In this document: positions 6,705-21,118 of the stretch, one piece after another
Position numbering within the stretch: the stretch's first letter is position 1
Layout: each line of letters begins with the position of its first letter
Source: Chryseobacterium indologenes
Lineage (GTDB): Bacteria; Bacteroidota; Bacteroidia; Flavobacteriales; Weeksellaceae
NCBI RefSeq assembly: GCF_002025665.1
Contig: NZ_CP018786.1
Coordinates: forward strand, 2,542,001-2,606,000
Length of the DNA stretch: 64,000 bases
Reading direction: 5' to 3'
Position numbers and translations under genes: made by a program
The notes under the pieces: model-generated
Database searches by the model: none
What the model saw: the letters and a program-made list of their open reading frames with translations, nothing else
Told to the model about the DNA's origin: nothing

Positions 6705-9700
6705 ATGAAGAAGTATCCAATTCCTGCGAATGAAGAAGGGAGAATGAAGAAACTGGAGTATTTTGATCTTTTAAACCTTGAAAAAGATCCCCAGTTAGAC
6801 ATTTTTGCAGAAACCGCATGTCTGGTGACAGACTGTCCTGCAGCGCTTATTGCCATGATGGAAAGCGAAACCCAGACCATTCAGAGTTGCGTGGGAATGG
6901 CTCTTGATTTTGTAGACAGAAAAAATACGGTATGCCAATATTCAATTGCAAGTGGAGAAATTCTGATCATCAATGATACATTATTGGATGAAAGATCATC
7001 AGAAAATCCACTCATTCTGGCGGGCGGAATCCGGTTTTATGCAGGAGTTCCTTTGATTGATGATGAAGGTTTTGTATTGGGAACCATCTGCGTTATCGAC
7101 TATAAACCTAAAACCATCACAGAAGACCAGATATCTGCTCTAAAAAAGATAGGAGACGCGATCACAAAAATTCTGACGGGCAAAAGGAAAAATATCCAGG
7201 CTGAGTATTTTCAACAAACTTTTACCATTTCCAATAACCTGATCTGTGTTCTGGGTAAAGATTTCTCACTGAAAGAGATTAATCCGGCTTTTGAAAATAC
7301 ATTTCAAATGGATAAAGGTCAGATTCTCGGCCAGAATTTCCTGGACCTGATAGGGAATCATAATTCTCAACTCCAATTACTTTCCAAAAACCTTCCCAAT
7401 ACGGATGAAGAAGTAACATTTACTACTTCAACAAAAATAGATGATATCCAAACGATCATTATTGAATGGTATTTAAAGCTCAATCAAAATCATTCAGAGA
7501 TTTTTTGTTTTGGAATTAATATCACCCAACGTATTGAAGAAAAGCTTAAACTAGAAAGCTCTGAACGCCGCTTCAGAAGCTTCTTTGAAAATGCTATAGG
7601 CTTAATGAGTATGCATGATATGGAAGGAAATATCATTGCTGTCAACGAGAAAGGAAGAGAAACCCTTCAATATTCTGTCGAAGAGGTAGAAAGGTTGAAT
7701 TTAAAAGACCTTGTTCCCCAGAAAAACTGGCCTCTTCTTGAACAATACCTCGAAAGAATCAACAAAAATCAGGAAGATTTCGGAACCATGATCCTGAGAA
7801 CTAAAGGAGGTGAAGACATGATCTGGATGTACCATAATCTTGTGGAAATCAACAAAGAAGGAAATCCTTACGTGGTGAGTACCGCACTGAATGTTACCGA
7901 AAGAATAACTTTGGAAAAAGATCTTGTTCATACCAAAAAGATGTTGGAACAAACCAGTGCCGTTGCACAGGTGGGAGGATGGGAAGTCAACCTGAAAAAC
8001 AATACTGTTCTCTGGTCACAATCTACCAGAGAAATCCATAAAATAGATAAAAATTTCCAGCCTGATTTTGAAAATGCACTGGGGTTCTATAGTGAAAAAA
8101 GCCGTGAGAAACTGGAATTCTTATTCGAAAAAGCTATAAAAGAAGGGATTCCCTATGATGAAGAATTACAGCTTGTACAAAATGACGGCATGATGATCTG
8201 GGTAAGGGTAAAAGGTATCCCGGAATTTGAAGATGGAGTATGCACCAGAGTCTATGGAATTATTCAGAATATTGATACCTTCAAAAATATCTACCTGGAA
8301 CTGGCTAAAAAAGAAGCTATGCTGCAGTCTTTTGTAAAATATGTACCTTCTACAGTAGCCATGTTTGACAAAGATCTCAATTATGTTTCTGTAAGCAGAA
8401 GCTGGAAAGATGAGTTTCAGATGAATGACATCAGACTTATTGGTGAGAACATGTTTAAAATCTCACCCAATGTACCGGATGAGAGATTAAAAATATATCA
8501 GGATGCACTGGCAGGAAAGGCCTATAAAAATGAAGATATGGCCATAGAAGTTCCGGGTAAAGGAATCATTCAGCATTACAGTGTAGAAGTGACGCCTTGG
8601 TACCTTTCCAATAATGTTATCGGAGGAATTATTGTTTCTGCACAGAATATTACCCCTTCCGTAAGAATCAATAGAGAACTGAAAAATGCCAAGAAAATGG
8701 CAGATATTGCCAGCAAAGCAAAGTCTGAATTCTTAGCCAACATGAGCCATGAAATCCGGACTCCGCTGAACGGTGTTATTGGTTTTTCCGATCTTCTTTT
8801 AAAAACTCCGTTGAATGATATACAGACTCAATACCTCAATTATATCAATGAATCAGGAGAGAATTTATTGAATATCATCAATGATATTCTTGATTTTTCC
8901 AAGGTAGAATCCGGAAAAATGGATCTTATCATTGAAAAATCCAATATTTATGACATGGTAAGTCAGGTGATCAATGTAATCCTTTACCAGTCACAGAAAA
9001 AAAATATAGAATTACTCCTCAATATAGAACAGGGTCTTCCTGAAATCATGTGGCTGGATGAATCAAGACTGAAACAAATTTTAGTCAACCTTCTTGGAAA
9101 TGCCGTGAAATTTACACAACAGGGAGAAATAGAGCTTAAAGTAGAAAAGCTCAATATTGATAACAAGAATATCAAACTTAGATTTTCTGTAAGAGATACC
9201 GGAATTGGTATTCCTAAGGAAAAGCAACACCATATTTTCAATGCCTTTACGCAAGAAAACAGCTCTATCAGTAAAACGTATGGAGGAACGGGTCTCGGAT
9301 TGACCATTTCCAATAATATTCTGAAATATATGGGAAGCAGCCTGTCATTGGTAAGTGAACTTCAAAAAGGTTCTGTTTTCTATTTTGACTTAGAGGTTCC
9401 TTATGAACTATCTGATCGTCATGAAGACGAAGATCTGAAAATAAGCAAAGTACTTATTGTAGATGATAATGAAGCAAACAGAATTATCATTCAACACATG
9501 CTTGCTTATAAAAATATAGATTCAAAGCTTGCGGCCAATGGAATGGAGGCTCTTCAGATACTGCTTGCAGGAGAGCGTTTTGATGTCATTCTGATGGATT
9601 ATCATATGCCTATCATTTCCGGTCTGGAAACAATAGAAAAAATCAAGGAACTATTCAGCAAACAAAATGAATCTTCTCCTTTGATTATTCTCCACACGTC

Positions 9701-10613
9701 TTCCGAGGAACATGATGTGATCAATTCTTTCCGTCAGGAAAACAATTCATTCTTCCTGCTGAAGCCTATCAAGTCTGAAGAACTCTATAAAACATTGAGA
9801 CGAGCTGTAAAAAACACTGAAAAGGAGGTAACCAGCATTGCACAACCGGAAACAGAAGACTCTATACTGATGCAGGCACCGCAGGTTTTATTGGTGGATG
9901 ACAATCCTGTTAATATGGTTCTTAACCACAAAATGATGCGTTCATTGGTACCGGATGCACATCTTACAGAAGCTACGGATGGACTTCAGGCAGTTTTGCA
10001 GTGTAAAGAAAAGGCATTCAATATCATTTTAATGGATGTTCAGATGCCGGTAATGGATGGTATTGAAGCGACCAAACAAATCCGTTTACTCCCGGAATAT
10101 TCTAATGTTCCCATTATTGGGGTAACGGCAGGTAATGTACTGGGAGAGAAAGAAAAATGTCTGGATTCCGGGATGAATGACTTCCTTCCTAAACCTTTAA
10201 GGCAGGCAGATCTGCTGGAAATGCTTAAAAAGTACATCATTAACGAAAGTAATAACCCTGCTGAAGATTCTTCCCATCAGGAAAATTACCTTGATATAAA
10301 TCTTCTGAACGAACAAATAGGTGACGATGATGAAGATTTCAGGAAAATCTTCTTAAATCTTGTCATAGAACAACTTAATCAGGCTGAAGAAAATATCAAA
10401 AAAAGTACTGCTGAAAAAGACAGTGACCACCTGAAACTGATTCTTCACAAACTCAAAGGAACAGCAGGAACAGCAGGATTGGTAAAACTTACAGAACGTA
10501 CTGCCAGCTGGGAGAAAAAAGCAGAAACGAACATGGATTTTATGTCCATGGAAGAAGAAATTATCCGCGAAATAACAACAGGATTACAATTAATTAAAAA
10601 TCTAATACAATAA
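6705..10613 (+). CDS. Hybrid sensor histidine kinase: GAF-PAS4-HisKA-HATPase-REC-REC-Hpt
   Basis: A 1302-residue soluble hybrid kinase without obvious membrane helices. Domains in order: GAF (about 15-165), four PAS units (about 165-660), HisKA with phospho-acceptor His682 in MSHEIRTPLNG, HATPase with NLLGNAVKF, DTGIGIP and GGTGLGL, receiver 1 (Asp965), receiver 2 (Asp1111) and a C-terminal Hpt domain (His1248 in LHKLKGTAGT). A full intramolecular phosphorelay is present. It should sense a cytoplasmic signal through GAF/PAS and hand phosphate from Hpt to a separate receiver, most likely the stand-alone regulator 12 bases downstream. A second ATG at 6744 is possible. The gene leads the exopolysaccharide-like cluster, suggesting that the relay controls it. 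Confidence 0.96.
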   Translation: MKKYPIPANEEGRMKKLEYFDLLNLEKDPQLDIFAETACLVTDCPAALIAMMESETQTIQSCVGMALDFVDRKNTVCQYSIASGEILIINDTLLDERSSENPLILAGGIRFYAGVPLIDDEGFVLGTICVIDYKPKTITEDQISALKKIGDAITKILTGKRKNIQAEYFQQTFTISNNLICVLGKDFSLKEINPAFENTFQMDKGQILGQNFLDLIGNHNSQLQLLSKNLPNTDEEVTFTTSTKIDDIQTIIIEWYLKLNQNHSEIFCFGINITQRIEEKLKLESSERRFRSFFENAIGLMSMHDMEGNIIAVNEKGRETLQYSVEEVERLNLKDLVPQKNWPLLEQYLERINKNQEDFGTMILRTKGGEDMIWMYHNLVEINKEGNPYVVSTALNVTERITLEKDLVHTKKMLEQTSAVAQVGGWEVNLKNNTVLWSQSTREIHKIDKNFQPDFENALGFYSEKSREKLEFLFEKAIKEGIPYDEELQLVQNDGMMIWVRVKGIPEFEDGVCTRVYGIIQNIDTFKNIYLELAKKEAMLQSFVKYVPSTVAMFDKDLNYVSVSRSWKDEFQMNDIRLIGENMFKISPNVPDERLKIYQDALAGKAYKNEDMAIEVPGKGIIQHYSVEVTPWYLSNNVIGGIIVSAQNITPSVRINRELKNAKKMADIASKAKSEFLANMSHEIRTPLNGVIGFSDLLLKTPLNDIQTQYLNYINESGENLLNIINDILDFSKVESGKMDLIIEKSNIYDMVSQVINVILYQSQKKNIELLLNIEQGLPEIMWLDESRLKQILVNLLGNAVKFTQQGEIELKVEKLNIDNKNIKLRFSVRDTGIGIPKEKQHHIFNAFTQENSSISKTYGGTGLGLTISNNILKYMGSSLSLVSELQKGSVFYFDLEVPYELSDRHEDEDLKISKVLIVDDNEANRIIIQHMLAYKNIDSKLAANGMEALQILLAGERFDVILMDYHMPIISGLETIEKIKELFSKQNESSPLIILHTSSEEHDVINSFRQENNSFFLLKPIKSEELYKTLRRAVKNTEKEVTSIAQPETEDSILMQAPQVLLVDDNPVNMVLNHKMMRSLVPDAHLTEATDGLQAVLQCKEKAFNIILMDVQMPVMDGIEATKQIRLLPEYSNVPIIGVTAGNVLGEKEKCLDSGMNDFLPKPLRQADLLEMLKKYIINESNNPAEDSSHQENYLDINLLNEQIGDDDEDFRKIFLNLVIEQLNQAEENIKKSTAEKDSDHLKLILHKLKGTAGTAGLVKLTERTASWEKKAETNMDFMSMEEEIIREITTGLQLIKNLIQ

Positions 10614-10625
10614 AATACTAAAATT

Positions 10626-10982
10626 ATGCTGATTCTAATCGCCGAAGACGACGAACTGATTCTAAAAACGATTGAACACAAATTATTAAAAGAAGGGCAT
10701 GAAGTGATCCTGACCCGAAACGGGAAAGACGCTATCGAAACCCTTAAAACCAGAGATGTAGATCTGGCTATCACAGATATTATGATGCCGTTTGCCTCAG
10801 GAATTGAAATACTTTCAGCCATTAAAACCATGGGCAAGCAGGTACCAGTAATCATGCTTTCCAGCATGGGGCAGGAAGAAGTAGTACTGAATGCTTTTGA
10901 CCTCGGAGCTGCCGATTTTATTGTGAAACCATTCAGTCCCAATGAATTGATATTAAGAATAAAAAGATTCTCTTTAAAATAA
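10626..10982 (+). CDS. Stand-alone response regulator receiver protein
   Basis: 118 residues forming just one CheY-like receiver domain: acidic pair in AEDDELI, phospho-acceptor Asp51 in ITDIMMP, Ser near residue 80 and Lys in FIVKPFSP. There is no DNA-binding or enzymatic output domain. It sits between the Hpt-bearing kinase and the HEAT/glycosyltransferase genes, with 9-12 base gaps, so it probably accepts phosphate from the kinase and acts by protein contact. Allosteric control of the neighbouring HEAT protein or synthase is an attractive inference, since no transcription factor is encoded in the operon. Confidence 0.95.
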   Translation: MLILIAEDDELILKTIEHKLLKEGHEVILTRNGKDAIETLKTRDVDLAITDIMMPFASGIEILSAIKTMGKQVPVIMLSSMGQEEVVLNAFDLGAADFIVKPFSPNELILRIKRFSLK

Positions 10983-10991
10983 ACTAAAGCC

Positions 10992-12059
10992 ATGTTTCTC
11001 ACCACTTCTGTGCATTTTCTTTTTCTTGTTTTTCTGGGAATGCTATCTTTAGTACTCTTACTGATTATTGTTGTACTGATTTACAGCTTTTATCAGTACA
11101 GAGAATCTGTTCAGGCCTTCAGATGGTCTGAAGTGATCAATAAAAAAATCTCAGAAGTGATTGTATATGGCGAAGAGGAAATGTATGCAGACACTAACTT
11201 TTCAGTGGCTTCTGGCAGTCCTTCATTCAGAAATCTATTCCTTCAGAAACTGGCAGAATCCGAGAAAAAATTTTCCGGAGCAGCTCAAAATAAGCTCAAA
11301 GACTTATTCCGGGAATATGGCCTTCAGGAAGAAGCATTGAAAAAACTGAATCAAAAGAAAGAACATATTATTGCAGGAGGAATACAGGAGCTTACAGCAA
11401 TGCACGTGGAAGAAGCATTGCCAAAAATTTCTACATTTTTAACCCATCCTTCAGCTCAGGTGTATCAGGAGGCTCAATATGCGATGGTTAACTTTAAAGG
11501 ATTTGAAGGTCTTCATTTTCTGAACAGCATTTCCTCCAGAATATCAGAATGGCAGCAGCTTCGTTTGCTTATTTCAATCACCCACATTCCTGAAAAATCA
11601 GGGGATAGTATTAAAAAATGGATGGAAAGTTCTAATGAATCCGTAGTCATTTTTACCCTTAAGCTATTAAGAAAATTTCAGATATTATCACTCTATTCTA
11701 CAGTAATTGATCTGTTGAATCATCCTTCCGTTGAAGTAAGGGTACAAGCAGTACAGACTTTATTGTCACTGGAAAATTCTTCCACCATTGCTCATCTTAT
11801 GGAAATGTATCCAAATCAACCCATTGAAGTGCAGAAAGAGGTTCTGAAAGTCATGAAAAAGTCAAAAGAACAATGCAGTACGGATTTTCTGAAAAATCAA
11901 TTATTAAACAATGCTGATTCAGGGATAAAGGTGTATGCTGCAGAAGCTTTATGTGCTTTGGAGCAACAGGAATACCTGGCAGAAATATCTCAAAAAGAAA
12001 CCTCTTCAGAAGAACTCATTCAAATTATTAAATACGCATTACAGGAAAAAGTATGTTAG
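10992..12059 (+). CDS. Membrane-anchored HEAT-repeat protein
   Basis: 355 residues. A single membrane helix at about residues 9-35 anchors a long helical domain. From about residue 125 the helices come in HEAT-like pairs (LPKISTFLTHPSAQVYQEAQYAMVN, then VIDLLNHPSVEVRVQAVQTLL, then SGIKVYAAEALCAL). HEAT repeats are protein-binding scaffolds. The last codons overlap the start of the glycosyltransferase fusion by 7 bases, so the two are translationally coupled and probably interact. In this operon it is the natural candidate for a link between the receiver protein and the synthase; that role is inferred. Confidence 0.88.
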   Translation: MFLTTSVHFLFLVFLGMLSLVLLLIIVVLIYSFYQYRESVQAFRWSEVINKKISEVIVYGEEEMYADTNFSVASGSPSFRNLFLQKLAESEKKFSGAAQNKLKDLFREYGLQEEALKKLNQKKEHIIAGGIQELTAMHVEEALPKISTFLTHPSAQVYQEAQYAMVNFKGFEGLHFLNSISSRISEWQQLRLLISITHIPEKSGDSIKKWMESSNESVVIFTLKLLRKFQILSLYSTVIDLLNHPSVEVRVQAVQTLLSLENSSTIAHLMEMYPNQPIEVQKEVLKVMKKSKEQCSTDFLKNQLLNNADSGIKVYAAEALCALEQQEYLAEISQKETSSEELIQIIKYALQEKVC

Positions 12060-15000
12060 AATTCTCACACATCATCTATGAAGTTGTTATTTGGTTGTTT
12101 TTGGTTTACGGAACAGCAGTAACCCTTATCTATGGCTGGATAGGAATTTATGCGTTGGGTGCTGTATTGCGTTATAAAAAAGAAAATACATTCACAGACT
12201 ACAGCATCATTGCGGCTAATCCCAATGCTCCTGTATTCAGCGTTATTGCTCCGGCCTATAATGAAGGAATGACCATTGTGGAAAATGTACGTTCTCTCTT
12301 ATCTCTTTACTATCATAATCTTGAAATTATCATTGTAAATGACGGAAGTAAGGATGATTCTATCCAAAAGCTGATCGAAGCTTACGAACTTGAATCTGTA
12401 GTTTATTTTATTCAGGGAAAAATAGAAACCAATGCGGTAAGAGGAGTTTATAAAAGTAAAAACCCGGCCTTTAAAAAACTGATTGTTGTTGATAAAGAAA
12501 ACGGAGGAAAGGCAGATGCTTTAAATGTTGGCGTCAATATTTCTTCCGGTGAATATCTGGTCTGCATTGATGTTGACTGTATTCTGGAGCAGGACTCCAT
12601 TTTAAAGCTTGCAAAGCCCATGCTGGAGCAGACTGATAAAAAGTTCATTGCATGCGGTGGAGTGATTCGTCTGGCTAACAATTGCGTCATTGAAAACGGA
12701 AAAGTAGTAAGTGTCAATATGCCGAAAACCCTACTGGGAAGAACACAGGCATTGGAATATATCCGAGCTTTTGTATTGGGGCGTATGGCGTGGTCCAGAG
12801 CTTCAGGATTGATTCTGATCTCCGGTGCTTTTGGAGTCTTTGACCGAAAAATCGTACTGGCTTGCGGTGGTTATGATAAAAGTACAGTGGGAGAGGACAT
12901 GGAGCTGGTGGTAAGAATGAGGAAGTACATGGAAGAAAAAAATGAGCCTTACGAAGTACTTACTATTCCGGATCCTCTATGCTGGACAGAAGTTCCCGAA
13001 TCCAAAGATATTCTTAGAAAACAGCGAAACAGATGGATGCGCGGTACCATGGAAACCCTGTGGAAACACCGAAAAATGATGTTCAATCCAAAGTATAAAA
13101 AACTGGGAATGATCAGCCTTCCTTATTGGTTCTTCTTTGAATTTCTCGGTCCGCTCATCGAATTTTCAGGTTATATTATCTTTATCATCTTTTTATTACT
13201 GGGAATTATCAACTGGCCATTCTTTATCGTTCTGTTCGCCCTCGTGATCTCAATGGGATTCTTATATTCCATCTATGCGATACTGGTGGATCTCGTAAGC
13301 CATCAGGTCTACACCAAAAGAAAAGACTTCTTTAGATTAATTTTCACAGCTTTTTCCGAACCTTTTTATTTTCATCCAATTGTGGTAAAAGCAGGGGTTA
13401 ACGGATTTATAGATTATTTCAAAAAATCTCATGGCTGGGGCGAAATGACAAGACAAGGTTTCAACCAAAGTACACAACATTTACCGCTGAAAGAAAGAAT
13501 ATCTGCTATTCTTCAGGTAGGACTCAAAAAATGGGGAATGCTGGCGTTGGTTTTCTTTGCATTATTTTTAATAGGAGTAACCGCAGAATCTCTATGGTAC
13601 AAATATACCTTTCCAAAATTTGAAACATCAGCCATTATTGGGCGTCTTTTCTTTGAAAACATTTTATTTGCCCTGCAACTGACATTCTGTGTCGGAGTTA
13701 TATATCTGATTATTAATTTTATCAAAGAAGGCTGGGCAAGAATTCTGGGAATTTTAACCCTGGTTGTTGTAGCAGTTACACAGTATATCTTATTCCTATA
13801 TTTTTCTGAAAGCCGTAACGTATTGGGTGCAGATCTTTTATACTACAGTAAAGAAGAGATGAAGCAGATTTTGCAGGCAAGCGGAATGCTCAACTTCAAA
13901 AACTTTGCATTACTGGGAATTTTGATAACAGCTTCTCTTGTTCCTTTATGGATTGCAGGTAAAACAGCTTTAAAATCAATATATCCGGGAATGATATTAT
14001 TGATTTTCGGATTATCAGCATTCTTTATTCCTTCCAATTTAGTAGGAGCAAAGGTTTTGAATTCTGAGAGTGAGTTTAACCAAAATGCAGCAAAAAGTAA
14101 ATGGGCTTATTTCTTTAAATCCAATGAAGACAATTTCATCAGCGACCATCCGGAACTCACCGAATTGCTAAGCGATAATGAAGATTTTACCGCCAACGCA
14201 GAAATGATCGATAAAAACTTTCCGTTCTGGAGAAAAGAAAACACCCCGGATTTCTTAGGATCTTATATGAACAAATCTGAGAAAGTTCCTAATCTTGTTT
14301 TTCTTGTTATGGAAGGCTTCGGACATGCGTATACATCTCCGAAAGGATATATCGGCAACTTCACCCCTTATCTTGATTCTTTATCCAATAAAGGGTTGTA
14401 TTGGGAAAACAGTTTAAGCTCAGCAGGAAGAACATTCGGAGCATTACCATCATTAACGGGATCTCTTCCTTTCGGAAAAAACGGCTTCCTTGAAATAGAA
14501 AAAACACCGGAGAATTTCAATCTTTATAATATCCTTAAAGCGAACGGATTTGAAACAGGATTTTATTATGGAGGTCATGTATCATTTGACCGCTACCGTG
14601 AATTCCTGGAATACAGTGGAGTAGATCATATTGTGGACGAAGCCTCATTCACCATTCCATACCGTAAACTTCCTGCTAACAACGGGGAGAGTTGGGGATA
14701 TGAAGATCAGGCAGTCTTAAATAAAATGCAACAGCAACAGAAACCGCAGAATCAGCCGTATTTCAATATGATACTTACACTTTCAACACATAATCCTTTT
14801 TTAATCAACAATAAGGATTATTATGAAAAGTTGTACAACCAAAGGCTAAACTCAGGGATTTTAACCAAAGAACAGAAAAAATGGGCAGCCGCTCATAAAA
14901 ATCAGCTCATCTCCGTCTTGAATGCTGATGATGCTATGAAAGGGTTCTTTGAAAATTACAGCAAACGTCCGGATTTCAAAAACACAATTTTTGTCATTAC

Positions 15001-15490
15001 AGGAGATCACAGTATGCCTGAAATTACCTTAGAATCTAAAATTGACAGATTCCATGTGCCTTTATTAATCTATTCACCATTATTAAAAGAATCAAAACGT
15101 TTTCATAAAACAGTAAGTCATTTTGATATTGCACCTTCTATTTTAGCGTACTACAGAAATAATTATAAAATCACTACACCTTCTACAGTAACATGGGTTG
15201 GAAGAGGATTCTCCGCAGATGCTGAAATCAACAAAGCCGGAATTCCTATGATGCAAAGTAAAAACCAGCTTATAGATTTTGTTTCTGAAAAATATTATAT
15301 CCATGATGGGCAGCTTTTCACGCTTAAAGACATGGAAGAAGATGCTTCCAATGACGCTGCAGCCATGAGTAAGATCAATGGAAGGTTCAATCAGTATAAA
15401 AGCATGAATGCTCAGTTTTATTCCACGAAAAAACTGATGCCGGATTCAGTAATCGTCAATTTTAAGAAAAAAACAAAATCAAAGTTTTAA
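12053..15490 (+). CDS. Glycosyltransferase family 2 synthase fused to LtaS-type sulfatase/phosphotransferase
   Basis: A 1145-residue fusion. Residues 1-480 are a processive membrane GT2 of the PgaC/cellulose-synthase type: Asp in VNDGS (about 96), the DVD metal motif (about 173), catalytic Asp in GEDMEL (about 280) and QRNRW (323-327), with flanking membrane helices. Residues about 500-690 add five membrane helices, followed by an extracytoplasmic alkaline-phosphatase-fold domain resembling lipoteichoic acid synthase and OpgB. Metal-site residues are visible: Glu754 (VMEGFG), nucleophile Thr794 (AGRTFG), Asp985 and His986 (TGDHSM). The five-helix plus sulfatase arrangement copies LtaS topology. 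The protein could polymerise a glycan and decorate it with phosphoglycerol or phosphoethanolamine. Its stop overlaps that of the convergent YaiO gene. Confidence 0.93.
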   Translation: MLEFSHIIYEVVIWLFLVYGTAVTLIYGWIGIYALGAVLRYKKENTFTDYSIIAANPNAPVFSVIAPAYNEGMTIVENVRSLLSLYYHNLEIIIVNDGSKDDSIQKLIEAYELESVVYFIQGKIETNAVRGVYKSKNPAFKKLIVVDKENGGKADALNVGVNISSGEYLVCIDVDCILEQDSILKLAKPMLEQTDKKFIACGGVIRLANNCVIENGKVVSVNMPKTLLGRTQALEYIRAFVLGRMAWSRASGLILISGAFGVFDRKIVLACGGYDKSTVGEDMELVVRMRKYMEEKNEPYEVLTIPDPLCWTEVPESKDILRKQRNRWMRGTMETLWKHRKMMFNPKYKKLGMISLPYWFFFEFLGPLIEFSGYIIFIIFLLLGIINWPFFIVLFALVISMGFLYSIYAILVDLVSHQVYTKRKDFFRLIFTAFSEPFYFHPIVVKAGVNGFIDYFKKSHGWGEMTRQGFNQSTQHLPLKERISAILQVGLKKWGMLALVFFALFLIGVTAESLWYKYTFPKFETSAIIGRLFFENILFALQLTFCVGVIYLIINFIKEGWARILGILTLVVVAVTQYILFLYFSESRNVLGADLLYYSKEEMKQILQASGMLNFKNFALLGILITASLVPLWIAGKTALKSIYPGMILLIFGLSAFFIPSNLVGAKVLNSESEFNQNAAKSKWAYFFKSNEDNFISDHPELTELLSDNEDFTANAEMIDKNFPFWRKENTPDFLGSYMNKSEKVPNLVFLVMEGFGHAYTSPKGYIGNFTPYLDSLSNKGLYWENSLSSAGRTFGALPSLTGSLPFGKNGFLEIEKTPENFNLYNILKANGFETGFYYGGHVSFDRYREFLEYSGVDHIVDEASFTIPYRKLPANNGESWGYEDQAVLNKMQQQQKPQNQPYFNMILTLSTHNPFLINNKDYYEKLYNQRLNSGILTKEQKKWAAAHKNQLISVLNADDAMKGFFENYSKRPDFKNTIFVITGDHSMPEITLESKIDRFHVPLLIYSPLLKESKRFHKTVSHFDIAPSILAYYRNNYKITTPSTVTWVGRGFSADAEINKAGIPMMQSKNQLIDFVSEKYYIHDGQLFTLKDMEEDASNDAAAMSKINGRFNQYKSMNAQFYSTKKLMPDSVIVNFKKKTKSKF

Positions 15491-16722
15491 AACTTTCGGG
15501 TATAGCCTAAAGTAATGTCAAACTGATTTCCTTTCTCACCCGGACGGAATTCCTGGTTATAATACATTGTTCCTATAGAAAAAAGATTGACGGAGCGGTA
15601 AGAAAAGTTATACTCAGCGCCTACTTTAAAGGTTTTAAGCTTAAAGGTCTCGTTTTCCAGAAGATTATTTCGGTATTCTTCCGGGCTTATTCCTGTTCCA
15701 ATCTGAAAAGCAAAATAATCCTGAGCTCCTTTAGTATAATAACGCACCGTTCCTGTATAAGAATGTGAAATGTTTTTGCTGTCAGGAGTAATATAAGTAC
15801 GCAGGTTGAACCAGAAATTTTTATAATATTTTCCTACAGCAGCAGTATACATCCAGATGCTGTTGCTGAAATGAAGCTGGCGGTATCCCAATTCTGCTTC
15901 AAAACTGTGAGGAAGATTGGCATTCAGGGAAACACCGGTACGGTATTTCGGAAACAGACCTACATCATCAGAATATCCTCCGCCTACATAAAGGTAGAAC
16001 ATTTTGGAAAGTCTTGGATACGCTTCCAATTCAATCTGTGTACCGCCTTGTGCAAATTTGTTTGCATAGTTTCCGCGAAGGATCACAGAACCAATAGGTG
16101 TAATTCTTTTGTAACTTACTCCTACGATATGCCAGTCATCATCAAATTGTTTGTCAAAATGGGAATAGTTGTAAATAATTCCAACAGCATTTTTAGAAGA
16201 CAGATCCTTGATTCTTACTGCAAGAGCCCTTGCCTCTGTATTTTTTGGATTAATAGATAATAGAGTGGTTACTGCTTTGTCAGCTTCTTCATAATTATCC
16301 ATTCCAAAATATACTTTTGCTTTCAACAATAGTAATGCCTCAGATTTAGAATGATAAAAAAGTCCTTTATCTATAATTTCGATAGCTTTTGTATTCTGAT
16401 CATTCCAGTATTCCAATGAAGCATACGCCAGGAAATAATCTTCATCCTGAACCTCTCTTTTTCCGAGATCTTCAAACACAGCTCTTGCTGCCGCTACGTC
16501 TTTATTCCAGGTATATAATCTTCCTAGAAAAACGGAAATATCAGTATAATTAGGTGCTTTTTCCAATGCCTCTTTTGCCAGGGCAATAGATGTAGCATAG
16601 TCTTTCTGCTCAAAAGCAGTGGTACGGGCTTTAACAAACAATTCATCAGCAGTAAGATTCTGCTGGCTATATAGAGTAATTGGGAAAAGTAATGCTAATA
16701 AAAAAGTCGGATATCTTTTCAT
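15487..16722 (-). CDS. YaiO family outer-membrane protein with TPR domain
   Basis: 411 residues: signal peptide (1-19), tetratricopeptide-like helical repeats (about 20-165, e.g. ALEKAPNYTDISVFLGRLY and AVTTLLSINPKNTEARALAV), then a beta-rich barrel of about 240 residues ending in YTRKF with a terminal aromatic residue, the usual outer-membrane insertion signal. This TPR-plus-barrel plan is that of YaiO and, more distantly, PgaA, the poly-GlcNAc exporter. In E. coli yaiO lies in the same region as the glycosyltransferase yaiP. Here it is convergent with the GT2-LtaS fusion, the two stop codons sharing TTAA. A role in exporting or retaining the polymer is inferred. Confidence 0.88.
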   Translation of the reverse strand: MKRYPTFLLALLFPITLYSQQNLTADELFVKARTTAFEQKDYATSIALAKEALEKAPNYTDISVFLGRLYTWNKDVAAARAVFEDLGKREVQDEDYFLAYASLEYWNDQNTKAIEIIDKGLFYHSKSEALLLLKAKVYFGMDNYEEADKAVTTLLSINPKNTEARALAVRIKDLSSKNAVGIIYNYSHFDKQFDDDWHIVGVSYKRITPIGSVILRGNYANKFAQGGTQIELEAYPRLSKMFYLYVGGGYSDDVGLFPKYRTGVSLNANLPHSFEAELGYRQLHFSNSIWMYTAAVGKYYKNFWFNLRTYITPDSKNISHSYTGTVRYYTKGAQDYFAFQIGTGISPEEYRNNLLENETFKLKTFKVGAEYNFSYRSVNLFSIGTMYYNQEFRPGEKGNQFDITLGYTRKF

Positions 16723-18236: not shown

Positions 18237-18521
18237 ATGAAAAACTTAAAAAAATTGGACAGAAACGAATTAAAAGCTATTTCAGGTAACGGATTACTAG
18301 ATCCAATCGGCGGTCTTCTAGGTGGACTAGGAGGTGTAGTTGGTGGAGTAGTAGGCGGTGTAGGTACTATCGTTGGAGGTGTTGTTTCTGGCGTAGGATC
18401 TACAGTAGGTGGAGTAGTAGGCGGTGTAAGCACTGTTGTAACTAACGCTTTATGCCAAACACAATGTGTTGTTAATGGTGTAATCCACATCAAATTACTT
18501 GAGTGCGGTTCTACTTGCTAA
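18237..18521 (+). CDS. Bacteriocin-like Gly/Val-rich peptide with two CX3C motifs
   Basis: 94 residues. The first 19 (MKNLKKLDRNELKAISGNG) resemble the short Lys-rich leaders of Bacteroidota bacteriocin-like peptides that end in a Gly-Gly-type site. Residues 20-66 are an almost pure Gly/Val tract built of GGVVGGV-like units, and the C-terminus carries four cysteines as CQTQC and CGSTC (two CX3C motifs about 15 residues apart). It has its own promoter and a strong terminator, so it is a real monocistronic gene. No peptidase-containing ABC exporter or modification enzyme lies nearby. The codons are not a shadow: the opposite strand gives only a Pro/Thr repeat. Function unknown; a secreted antimicrobial or structural/metal-binding peptide are both possible. 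Confidence 0.8.
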   Translation: MKNLKKLDRNELKAISGNGLLDPIGGLLGGLGGVVGGVVGGVGTIVGGVVSGVGSTVGGVVGGVSTVVTNALCQTQCVVNGVIHIKLLECGSTC

Positions 18522-18727: not shown

Positions 18728-21118
18728 ATGCACATGAAAAGGACCGTTTATTTTTTGGTGGGTGGCACACTTATGTATTCACCATCTCTACTGAAAGCTC
18801 AGAAAATTACCCCTGAAAAAAAGATTGTAAAGGATATAGAATCCGTTCAGGTACAGGGAAAATCTAATTATAACACTGTAAATATTTCAAGAAAAAAGCT
18901 GGATTTTATTCAATCCAATACATTGGGAGAAACATTGAGTAAGATTCCCGGAATTCAAAATTCAGGATACGGACCGAATTCCGGAGCTCCTGTGATCAGA
19001 AGTCTAAGCGGAAACCGGGTAAAAATATTGGAAAACGGAACAGCAGTGAATGATCTTTCCGGGATAAGTCCAGATTTTAATACGGATATAGAGATGAACA
19101 ATGTTCAGAATATTACCGTTTATAAAAACTCAGCATCGGTTTTATATGGAGGAAAAGCTATTGGAGGAGCCTTAGATATTGAAACAGATTATATTGTCAG
19201 ACAATTGCCGGATAAAAAATTTAATGTAAAAGGACTTCTTGAAGGGGGAAGCAACAGTGGACAAAAACAGGCTTTTTCAGCGAAAGGAGTTATTGCTAAA
19301 AACTGGGTCTGGACGGTAGGAGCATCCAATCAGAAACAGGAAATGGTCAGAATTCCGGGAAAATCAAAAGACAGCAGATGCTATGATCCGAACCTTGTCG
19401 GTTTCAACAGTATCTTACAGTCGTTGTGCCAGATTGATGTAAATTCAAGACGGGTACTCAACAAGAGTCTTTTTCCCTACATCAGCCAGTTTGCCAAGGA
19501 TCATATGATTGAATATGAGCTGTCTGAAGATGATCTTTACACCTTCAGTTCTACGTACTACAATCCTGCTGATGGTAAATATTATCCTAATCCAAAGAAT
19601 GATCTGTATGTTCCTGGTCAGGATGCCGTGAAAGACCGTTATAAAAGTGAAGTAAACGGAATCAAGGATTATGTGGAAACAAAAGATGGAGTGATACCCA
19701 ACAGTCATTCGGAAAGCAATTCATTTTATGTTGGCACCAGTTATATTGGAAAATCATTGTATGTGGGAGGTGCTTATCAGAATTCTTATTCCTATTTTGG
19801 AGTTCCCGGGTATGCAATCCCTAAAATACCTAAACATAGCCATGGAAAACCACAGCCCAAAATAGAATATAGTCCCATTAATATCAGAAGCTTATCCCAT
19901 AAAGCCATGTTTGAATCCGGTTACAAGTTTACCCATTTTCCGATTTCAAGCATCAAACTGAATTATATGGGCGTATTTTCGAAAAACGCAGAACTTCTGG
20001 ATCGTTACCGCGCCAATCAGTTTGCCATAAACCAACACAATAGCCGTCTGGAAATCACACAGCAGAAATTGAGGTTTCTTACTGGAACTACAGGTCTTGA
20101 AGTACAATACAGAGATATGGAAGGAACTGGAGGCCAAAAATATCTGCCTAATACTATAAGCCGTGAAATTGGAGTCTTTACGATGCAGCATCTTGATTTT
20201 AATATCATTCAGTTTGATCTTGGGTATAGAAATGATCATGTACAACGTAGAGCGGAAGCAGATAATAAATATGTCAGAAGTCGTGGACTTTCCGGTGGAA
20301 AACTCAGCGACAGAGATTTTACCCTTCACCAATTTCATAGTTCCGCTCAATGGACTCTCTTTAAAAAAGGATATCTGAAAGTACAGTACAACCATTCAGA
20401 AAGAGCACCGGAAGTGAATGAGCTTTATTCAGGAAACAATCATTTTGCCATCCTGACGGAGGAAAATGGTGATGACAGACTGGATAAGGAAACTGCAAAT
20501 ACGGTTGAAATAGGAGGAGGGCTCAACCTGAAGAACTTCCGCGTATCGGCCAGCTGGTACAATACTTCTTATAAAAATTATATTTACCTTGCCCATACCG
20601 GGATTTCCAGAGAAATTTTTCTGGTAAAAGAATGGCGTTCTGATGATACAGAAATCAATGGAATTGAAGCTGAAGCTTCTTATAAAGCAGATCTTGGAAA
20701 AATAGGAAAGTGGGAGATAGGTGGATATTATGATTTGGTAAGAAATATAAGCGTTGCCGACAGCTCCATAAGAAAGTGGAGTGATGGTGATTATATGCCT
20801 AATATGCCTACAAGCCGTTTCGGATTCTCTCTGGAAGGAAATGTACAGAACTTCAGTATGAATGTAAGTTTAGACCATTATTTAAAACAAAAATATTTAG
20901 GAAAGAATATCAATCCTGAGCTTCCTATGCCAGCATTTTCATTGCTAAATGTACGTTTAGCCTATAAAGACAACAGTTTAGGCATAGGTGATCTGGAGTA
21001 TTATATTATAGGAAATAACCTGTTGAACACCGAAGCAAGACTTCAGAACTCTCAGTTAAAGTTTCTCAGCCCGCTTCCCGGAATTAATATTTCAGCCGGT
21101 GTGAAAATAACAATATAA
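18728..21118 (+). CDS. TonB-dependent outer-membrane receptor, ZnuD-like plug
   Basis: 796 residues. A signal peptide ends near residue 24 (LLKAQ). The plug domain (about 35-150) contains NTLGETLSKIPGIQNSGYGP and APVIRSLSGNRVKILENG, which resemble the plug of ZnuD-type zinc receptors rather than SusC proteins; there is no carboxypeptidase-like N-terminal domain. The remainder is a 22-strand barrel ending in an aromatic/hydrophobic pattern. A loop near residues 218-238 has two cysteines (RCYDPN, LCQID). TonB energises uptake of a metal or metallophore across the outer membrane. A palindromic operator on its promoter suggests metal repression. Zinc as substrate is an inference. A degraded copy of its 3' end lies at 23841. 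Confidence 0.9.
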   Translation: MHMKRTVYFLVGGTLMYSPSLLKAQKITPEKKIVKDIESVQVQGKSNYNTVNISRKKLDFIQSNTLGETLSKIPGIQNSGYGPNSGAPVIRSLSGNRVKILENGTAVNDLSGISPDFNTDIEMNNVQNITVYKNSASVLYGGKAIGGALDIETDYIVRQLPDKKFNVKGLLEGGSNSGQKQAFSAKGVIAKNWVWTVGASNQKQEMVRIPGKSKDSRCYDPNLVGFNSILQSLCQIDVNSRRVLNKSLFPYISQFAKDHMIEYELSEDDLYTFSSTYYNPADGKYYPNPKNDLYVPGQDAVKDRYKSEVNGIKDYVETKDGVIPNSHSESNSFYVGTSYIGKSLYVGGAYQNSYSYFGVPGYAIPKIPKHSHGKPQPKIEYSPINIRSLSHKAMFESGYKFTHFPISSIKLNYMGVFSKNAELLDRYRANQFAINQHNSRLEITQQKLRFLTGTTGLEVQYRDMEGTGGQKYLPNTISREIGVFTMQHLDFNIIQFDLGYRNDHVQRRAEADNKYVRSRGLSGGKLSDRDFTLHQFHSSAQWTLFKKGYLKVQYNHSERAPEVNELYSGNNHFAILTEENGDDRLDKETANTVEIGGGLNLKNFRVSASWYNTSYKNYIYLAHTGISREIFLVKEWRSDDTEINGIEAEASYKADLGKIGKWEIGGYYDLVRNISVADSSIRKWSDGDYMPNMPTSRFGFSLEGNVQNFSMNVSLDHYLKQKYLGKNINPELPMPAFSLLNVRLAYKDNSLGIGDLEYYIIGNNLLNTEARLQNSQLKFLSPLPGINISAGVKITI

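Follow-up and report, generated by a model that had tools for sequence, protein, structure and literature searches.

Organization of the locus

Within a 64,000-nucleotide (nt) stretch of the Chryseobacterium indologenes genome (contig NZ_CP018786.1, positions 2,542,001 to 2,606,000; the whole stretch is called the window, and coordinates without a locus label refer to it) lies a cluster of genes centred on a glycosyltransferase family 2 (GT2) synthase that is fused to a predicted membrane-anchored phosphotransferase domain of the LtaS/OpgB type. The fusion gene (12053..15490, + strand) encodes 1145 amino acids (aa) and was assigned by Pfam, NCBIfam, alignment and fold. It is preceded on the same strand by genes for a hybrid histidine kinase (6705..10613; 1302 aa, with GAF, PAS, HisKA, HATPase_c, two receiver and Hpt domains by Pfam), a single-domain response regulator (10626..10982; 118 aa, phospho-acceptor D51) and a HEAT-repeat protein (10992..12059; Pfam HEAT_2 2.8e-10) with one N-terminal membrane helix, corresponding to a hydrophobic segment within residues 1-38. 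The only Pfam family above cut-off in the response regulator is Response_reg (E 5.8e-29), so that it consists of a receiver with no output domain.

These four genes are arranged head to tail. The kinase gene stops 12 nt short of the receiver gene, the receiver and HEAT genes are separated by 9 nt, and the HEAT gene overlaps the fusion gene by 7 nt. On the other side, the fusion gene overlaps by 4 nt a convergent gene (15487..16722, - strand) for an outer-membrane beta-barrel protein of the YaiO family with N-terminal tetratricopeptide repeats (TPRs), which matches PF19413 (8.1e-67; 225 bits, cut-off 23.9) and TIGR04390 (8e-60; 202.7 bits, cut-off 32). An earlier reading of this DNA, made from the letters and open reading frames (ORFs) alone and called here the sequence-only reading, had described the receiver, HEAT, fusion and convergent YaiO/TPR ORFs and the overlap with the HEAT gene in these terms, and the Pfam domain search agrees with it. 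The hybrid kinase gene, which lies beyond the coordinates considered there, is likely to belong to the same operon. A scan for promoters and terminators gave nothing decisive.

The GT2 half of the fusion

A single protein holds both a Pfam Glycos_transf_2 domain (2e-20, residues 63-192) and a Sulfatase domain (1.4e-34, residues 746-1032). The GT2 half (12053..13480) carries N70/E71, D97, D173, D175, E281, D282 and the QRxRW motif at 324-328, and N70/E71, the five acidic residues, Q324, R325, R327 and W328 are each invariant in all 162 GT2 sequences compared. Hydropathy marks membrane segments in this half, the motif set is of the processive type, and processivity is predicted. The catalytic residues listed in the sequence-only reading (D173/D175, E281/D282 and QRxRW here; E754, T794, D985 and H986 in the C-terminal half) are found where it had placed them and are invariant in 11 aligned fusions.

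The nearest curated NCBIfam models for the GT2 half are those for PgaC/IcaA and for XrtG-associated synthases, and all score below their cut-offs; the PgaC/IcaA equivalog TIGR03937 gives 128.1 bits against a cut-off of 422.3. Escherichia coli YaiP is 26% identical to the GT2 half over 257 positions (E 5e-11), which is the level expected of GT2 proteins in general.

The sulfatase-fold half

The C-terminal half (13493..15487) is modelled by AlphaFold2 from 59 sequences as five membrane helices followed by a globular domain of the alkaline phosphatase superfamily, with a predicted local distance difference test score (pLDDT) of 93.1 and a predicted template modelling score of 0.90. The five helices ahead of the globular domain had already been recognised in the sequence-only reading, and the model and hydropathy mark the same stretches. 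The best structural match is VP1736 (3lxq; Z 37.8, root mean square deviation 2.9, 374 aligned residues), followed by LtaP/LtaS (Z 33.5-35.0), YejM/PbgA (Z about 30-31.5) and sulfatases (28.5 and below). MCR-1 appears among the Foldseek matches, ranked below LtaS. BcsG and EptA are not among the 50 structural-alignment (VIA-align) matches listed, which excludes nothing.

The putative active site comprises E754, T794, H913, D985 and H986. Conservation of the metal site in homologues was one of two points on which the sequence-only reading had staked its idea of a joint system, and it was borne out: 91 of 101 homologues have the strict E/T/D/H set, and a further four have Ser in place of Thr. 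In the remaining six (L090, L093, L098, L120, L140 and L143) the site is altered, with the HEAT and GT2 genes alongside retained. Fold, metal ligands and the Thr nucleophile all match, and on the model and the alignment the C-terminal half is predicted to belong to the LtaS/OpgB-type phosphotransferase branch.

Which lipid would serve as donor is harder to read from the residues. The glycerol-phosphate pocket of LtaS is formed by H347, D349, W354, R356 and H416; in the alignment only the equivalent of H416 (H913) is retained, and VP1736 and E. coli OpgB also mostly differ. Since OpgB, which is annotated as phosphoglycerol transferase I, does without the same residues, the comparison does not decide between donors. 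The family profile of the sulfatase half gives 47 bits to OpgB and 1.7 bits to BcsG, and OpgB models are among those that NCBIfam lists for it. The C. indologenes genome encodes two CDP-alcohol phosphatidyltransferases, of which one is PssA-like (87 bits, cut-off 107) and the other reaches 22.9 bits to PgsA (cut-off 109). The presence of a PssA-like enzyme, albeit below cut-off, and of no PgsA above cut-off leans weakly towards phosphatidylethanolamine as donor.

YaiO and its E. coli relative

The window protein and E. coli YaiO give nothing significant by pairwise BLASTP, and membership of a common family is seen by profile only. The PgaA model scores 16 bits on the window protein, with a cut-off of 367. 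In E. coli, as the sequence-only reading had stated, yaiO and the glycosyltransferase gene yaiP lie in the same region; yaiX (split by IS2 in K-12) is between them and the PIG-L deacetylase gene yaiS lies beyond yaiP. The occurrence of YaiO beside a GT2 protein in a second phylum supports a polysaccharide-handling role. Among 41 open-access papers that name YaiO, the 30 listed, judging by titles and the starts of abstracts, mostly use the gene as a marker for the detection of E. coli.

Distribution and gene order in the Bacteroidota

An evenly drawn sample of 395 Bacteroidota genomes was searched with the fusion, independently for YaiO with PF19413, and with an alignment query for the HEAT family. 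The fusion finds matches at E 1e-10 in 201 genomes. Those at E 1e-60 or better, a cut set after seeing a gap in the list between 1e-74 and 1e-40, are here called the GT2 clade and occur in 94 genomes. YaiO occurs in 93, and the two coincide almost completely: 92 genomes have both, two only the GT2 clade (G140, G384), one only YaiO (G340) and 300 neither. In G340, yaiO has a more divergent GT2 gene (83 bits) about 2.4 kb away, and when the match listings are compared none of the 107 genomes having only weaker GT2 matches has YaiO. The HEAT family, found in 91 genomes, is similarly tied to the GT2 clade (both 89, GT2 only 5, HEAT only 2, neither 299). C. indologenes itself has a single YaiO match and a single HEAT match at these thresholds, both at this locus; its second GT2 domain lies far off, in a GH18-polysaccharide deacetylase-GT2 protein of 1132 aa (L201:2273-5668).

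Gene order was compared in two sets of loci. The 80 named loci are the best 80 of the scan matches and are therefore biased towards close relatives. The 80 sampled regions, from 72 genomes, were chosen by hand down the GT2 match list, with the Chryseobacterium genus and some lower or near-duplicate rows omitted, and 22 of the 94 GT2-clade genomes (C. indologenes included) fall outside them. Nine loci of one distant family (L208-L216) were kept out of the region counts. Counts were made on stop-to-stop frames with HEAT, YaiO, GT2 and sulfatase-half profiles iterated on the loci themselves, and a gene described as not found is absent from the fetched stretch only. For YaiO a barrel-only profile was used, as the whole-protein profile also matched Flavobacteriaceae sulfatase-fold proteins, probably through their C-terminal TPRs. 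A C-terminal TPR match is seen in one of these proteins (L078:11423-13780, 785 aa) and is probable in its relatives of comparable size; the repeats are perhaps a link to YaiO.

All 80 sampled regions contain the HEAT gene, 69 of them with it immediately ahead of GT2 on one strand, and so do 80 of the 81 named and window loci (directly upstream in 72). A lone receiver is found in 70 and 79, respectively, and YaiO in 63 and 72. Where present, the lone receiver lies within 400 nt of the HEAT gene in 121 of 149 cases. A same-strand kinase frame within 4.5 kb upstream of GT2 is found in only 49 of the 81 and 21 of the 80, which places the kinase outside the strict core. Several of the regions that lack YaiO, such as L129 (G343) and L131 (G021), are second copies, the genome having YaiO at another place. 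In two genomes, G296 and G328, the sulfatase-fold gene adjoins yaiO, both away from GT2.

The sulfatase-fold gene is present in 73 of the 81 named and window loci and in 29 of the 80 sampled regions. It is fused to GT2 in 44 and 7 of these, respectively; of the separate copies, 28 of 29 in the first set and 11 of 22 in the second lie directly downstream of GT2. Fusions number 51 overall. They are found in the sampled Weeksellaceae, in many Sphingobacteriaceae and Chitinophagaceae and in a few Flavobacteriaceae loci; elsewhere the genes are separate. On a GT2 tree of 155 rows the fused state changes at least eight times, with five changes forced by well-supported branches; the tree comes from a quick search with support by a single method, and omits seven named loci (near-duplicate or truncated) as well as identical and short rows. 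Repeated fusion and splitting is a classical sign of one shared task and supports joint action of the GT2 and phosphotransferase proteins. Fusion is predicted to place the phosphotransferase beside the growing chain.

The locus is thus one instance of a recurrent Bacteroidota module, of which the fusion is one variant. The sequence-only reading had proposed a joint system, in which one polypeptide makes and modifies a glycan, YaiO handles it at the outer membrane and the receiver/HEAT pair controls activity, and had made co-occurrence of the fusion and YaiO in other genomes its second test. YaiO is found at 44 of the 51 fused loci, and three of the seven without it (L052, L064, L094) end at contig ends. 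With the genome-level coupling, the recurrence of the module and the repeated fusion and splitting, the idea of a joint system is now considerably stronger than that reading could know. Some of its details call for revision: phosphoglycerol is one candidate for the group added, regulation by the receiver and HEAT proteins is something we infer, and the sulfatase-fold gene was found in only 29 of the 80 sampled regions.

Possible inputs to the synthase

A kinase with HisKA, two receivers and Hpt, together with a lone receiver, means that the locus holds all steps of a His-Asp-His-Asp relay. Among the lone receivers nearest HEAT genes, D51 is kept in 141 of 149, K101 in 145 and S/T79 in 144. Control of synthase-dependent polysaccharide production frequently involves cyclic di-GMP (c-di-GMP) (PMC12802240, consulted in part). 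The C. indologenes genome, however, has no GGDEF and no PilZ match (other c-di-GMP receptors, MshEN included, were not searched for), and GGDEF matches are lacking in 65 of the 94 GT2-clade genomes. In one family (L175, L190, L195) a GGDEF-motif protein replaces the kinase just upstream of receiver-HEAT-GT2, and in another (L169, L180, L185, L188) a receiver-GGDEF protein whose motif is not intact, assigned by Pfam for L169, is encoded directly upstream of HEAT. These two variants suggest that the HEAT-GT2 core is fixed and its inputs exchangeable. GGDEF matches also lie close by in several of the L208-L216 contigs.

A tentative generalisation, which we hold with rather less than full conviction and would not yet favour over its denial, is that a phosphorylated lone receiver, acting through a membrane-anchored HEAT adaptor, allosterically gates a phylum-wide GT2 exopolysaccharide synthase independently of c-di-GMP; that different lineages have come to use different inputs, a phosphorelay or a GGDEF protein, with the same HEAT-GT2 core by exchange of one for the other; and that polymerisation and phospho-decoration can share one polypeptide.

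A model for the locus and its alternatives

The explanation that we think probable is a synthase-dependent exopolysaccharide system in which the polymer receives its phospho-decoration ‘in line’ and a receiver and a HEAT protein, rather than c-di-GMP, do the gating. The polymer, its decoration and the group transferred, the export role of YaiO and the contact between receiver, HEAT protein and synthase are all parts that we infer, and they might fit together as follows. The GT2 half would polymerise a nucleotide-sugar at the inner membrane, the chain passing through its membrane segments. The periplasmic LtaS/OpgB-type domain would move a phosphorus-containing lipid head group (phosphoglycerol or phosphoethanolamine), via Thr794, onto the emerging chain, which YaiO, by its TPRs and outer-membrane barrel, would take up and export. 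A His-Asp-His(Hpt)-Asp relay would lead from the hybrid kinase to the lone receiver, and the phosphorylated receiver, through the membrane-anchored HEAT protein, would switch the synthase, the role played by c-di-GMP in the Pga, cellulose and Nfr systems.

Several observations weigh against this model as a general one. As far as the fetched stretches go, 17 of the 80 sampled regions show no YaiO, 10 no lone receiver and 59 no upstream kinase gene. The sulfatase-fold gene is not found in 51 of the 80, so that decoration is not a core function, and in some species, given the six altered active sites, the domain may have no catalytic role. The loci of the distant family L208-L216 show HEAT in eight of nine, YaiO in three of nine and a receiver match in none. 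The genomes in the counts are, moreover, related, so that p-values would overstate their independence.

The product could instead stay in the periplasm. It would then be a GT2-made glucan carrying phosphoglycerol, comparable to the osmoregulated periplasmic glucans that OpgH makes and OpgB modifies, and YaiO would be structural or transport something else. The sulfatase half is indeed nearer OpgB (47 bits) than BcsG (1.7 bits), and NCBIfam lists OpgB models for it; however, an outer-membrane barrel family accompanies the GT2 clade in 92 of 94 genomes, and no OpgH model appears in the list of 24 NCBIfam families for the fusion, in which the PgaC/IcaA and XrtG types come nearest. This we regard as improbable. 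It also seems unlikely that the sulfatase-fold domain is a sensor or scaffold rather than an enzyme, the polymer being exported undecorated. YejM/PbgA, a non-enzymatic member of this fold with such a role, is a structural relative, and the altered homologues and the many sampled regions without the gene (51 of 80) would fit; but E, D, H and either T or S are retained in 95 of 101 homologues, and none of these residues is missing from the window protein. That the domain is a true sulfatase, desulfating the polymer or another substrate, is very improbable indeed. The Pfam Sulfatase match (1.4e-34) is its one attraction, and the sequence already speaks against it: the C/S-x-P-x-R motif, the formylglycine signature of S1 sulfatases, is absent from the whole fusion, and fold and residues are of the LtaS type.

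The control arm of the model can also be read otherwise. If the receiver and HEAT genes were merely co-transcribed with the synthase gene, their products might control gene expression or another membrane process without touching the synthase; lone receivers can serve phosphorelays that regulate genes (PMC12802240, as far as the part consulted goes), and in 10 of the 80 sampled regions no lone receiver is found. Pfam lists no DNA-binding family for either protein, though, and the presence of HEAT in 80 of 80 regions, its coupling to GT2 in 89 of 94 genomes and its membrane anchor all tell against this reading. We consider an arrangement without contact to have little likelihood.

If the receiver and HEAT protein do gate the synthase, synthase-dependent secretion would have a switch that does not rely on c-di-GMP. 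A locus type found in 94 of 395 genomes would then offer a direct and testable answer to how polysaccharide synthases are switched in such bacteria, 65 of the 94 being without a GGDEF match. YaiO would gain a defined partner, and the GT2-phosphotransferase fusion is a good starting point in the search for a phosphorylated surface glycan.

Relation to known systems

The GT2 half scores best against PgaC/IcaA of the PgaABCD and Ica systems, but below the equivalog cut-off, and the barrel here is of the YaiO family. The poly-N-acetylglucosamine system has a TPR-barrel exporter, the role proposed for YaiO here; a Pfam scan of the five locus proteins shows no deacetylase domain. The E. coli yaiS-yaiP-yaiX-yaiO cluster likewise encodes a GT2 protein (YaiP) together with a YaiO barrel. 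However, it has no annotated HEAT, receiver or phosphotransferase gene, carries a PIG-L deacetylase gene and a gene for a putative acyltransferase, which IS2 interrupts in K-12, and its YaiO shows no TPR match, whereas the window YaiO has TPRs.

LtaS/LtaP, OpgB and VP1736 have the fold and the E/T/D/H set in common with the sulfatase half, and the five-helix membrane anchor of LtaS resembles that found here. The present protein differs in that the phosphotransferase domain is fused to a GT2 synthase. BcsG gives no match to the family profile (1.7 bits) but is a conceptual parallel, in that a lipid-derived phospho-group is added to a polymer leaving a GT2 synthase.

The nearest experimentally known two-part system, in the parts of the source consulted, is NfrB-NfrA of E. 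coli, a c-di-GMP-controlled exopolysaccharide synthase (PMC8669469). It has a processive GT2 protein at the inner membrane, an outer-membrane TPR protein with a C-terminal pore, and post-translational control (PMC8669469), features that resemble those found or proposed for the locus. NfrB, as described in those parts, consists of glycosyltransferase and MshEN domains only and binds c-di-GMP through MshEN (PMC8669469), whereas the present locus has receiver and HEAT genes instead. For the control arm, a published precedent is EpsW-EpsZ of Myxococcus, in which a phosphorylated single-domain response regulator, EpsW, activates a polysaccharide enzyme post-translationally (PMC12802240, consulted in part). 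EpsZ, however, is not a GT2 synthase but acts as a phosphoglycosyl transferase in a Wzx/Wzy pathway, and the portion of that source consulted mentions no HEAT adaptor (PMC12802240). Searches of open-access papers found no description of the module; subscription journals may hold one.

Accessory genes and other features

A family of proteins of about 390 aa with one N-terminal membrane helix, here called F390, is often encoded between the sulfatase-fold gene and yaiO (L107:13570-14772, L061:13465-14619 and 25 more loci), and is found in 12 of the 80 sampled regions and 15 of the 81 named and window loci. Three members give no Pfam match above cut-off and one member tried gives no NCBIfam match. 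The fold predicted for the family (pLDDT 90.7) is of the glutamine-amidotransferase/ThuA-like type, which GH42 enzymes and the deacetylase Agd3 also contain as a domain (best Z about 14). DUF4838 (PF16126) proteins, one with an F5/8-type C domain, adjoin YaiO at L121:3826-6051 and L155:3141-5465 and are possible polymer-handling enzymes. Both F390 and DUF4838 look like lineage-specific add-ons for polymer handling.

In a Flavobacteriaceae group (L078:6427-9990 and relatives) the HEAT protein is enlarged to about 700-1190 aa, and L138 has two GT2 genes. Beyond yaiO in the window, a small glycine-rich ORF of 94 aa (18237-18521) has a start that by eye resembles a double-glycine leader peptide, and downstream of it lies a gene that, also by eye, is TonB-receptor-like (18728-21118).

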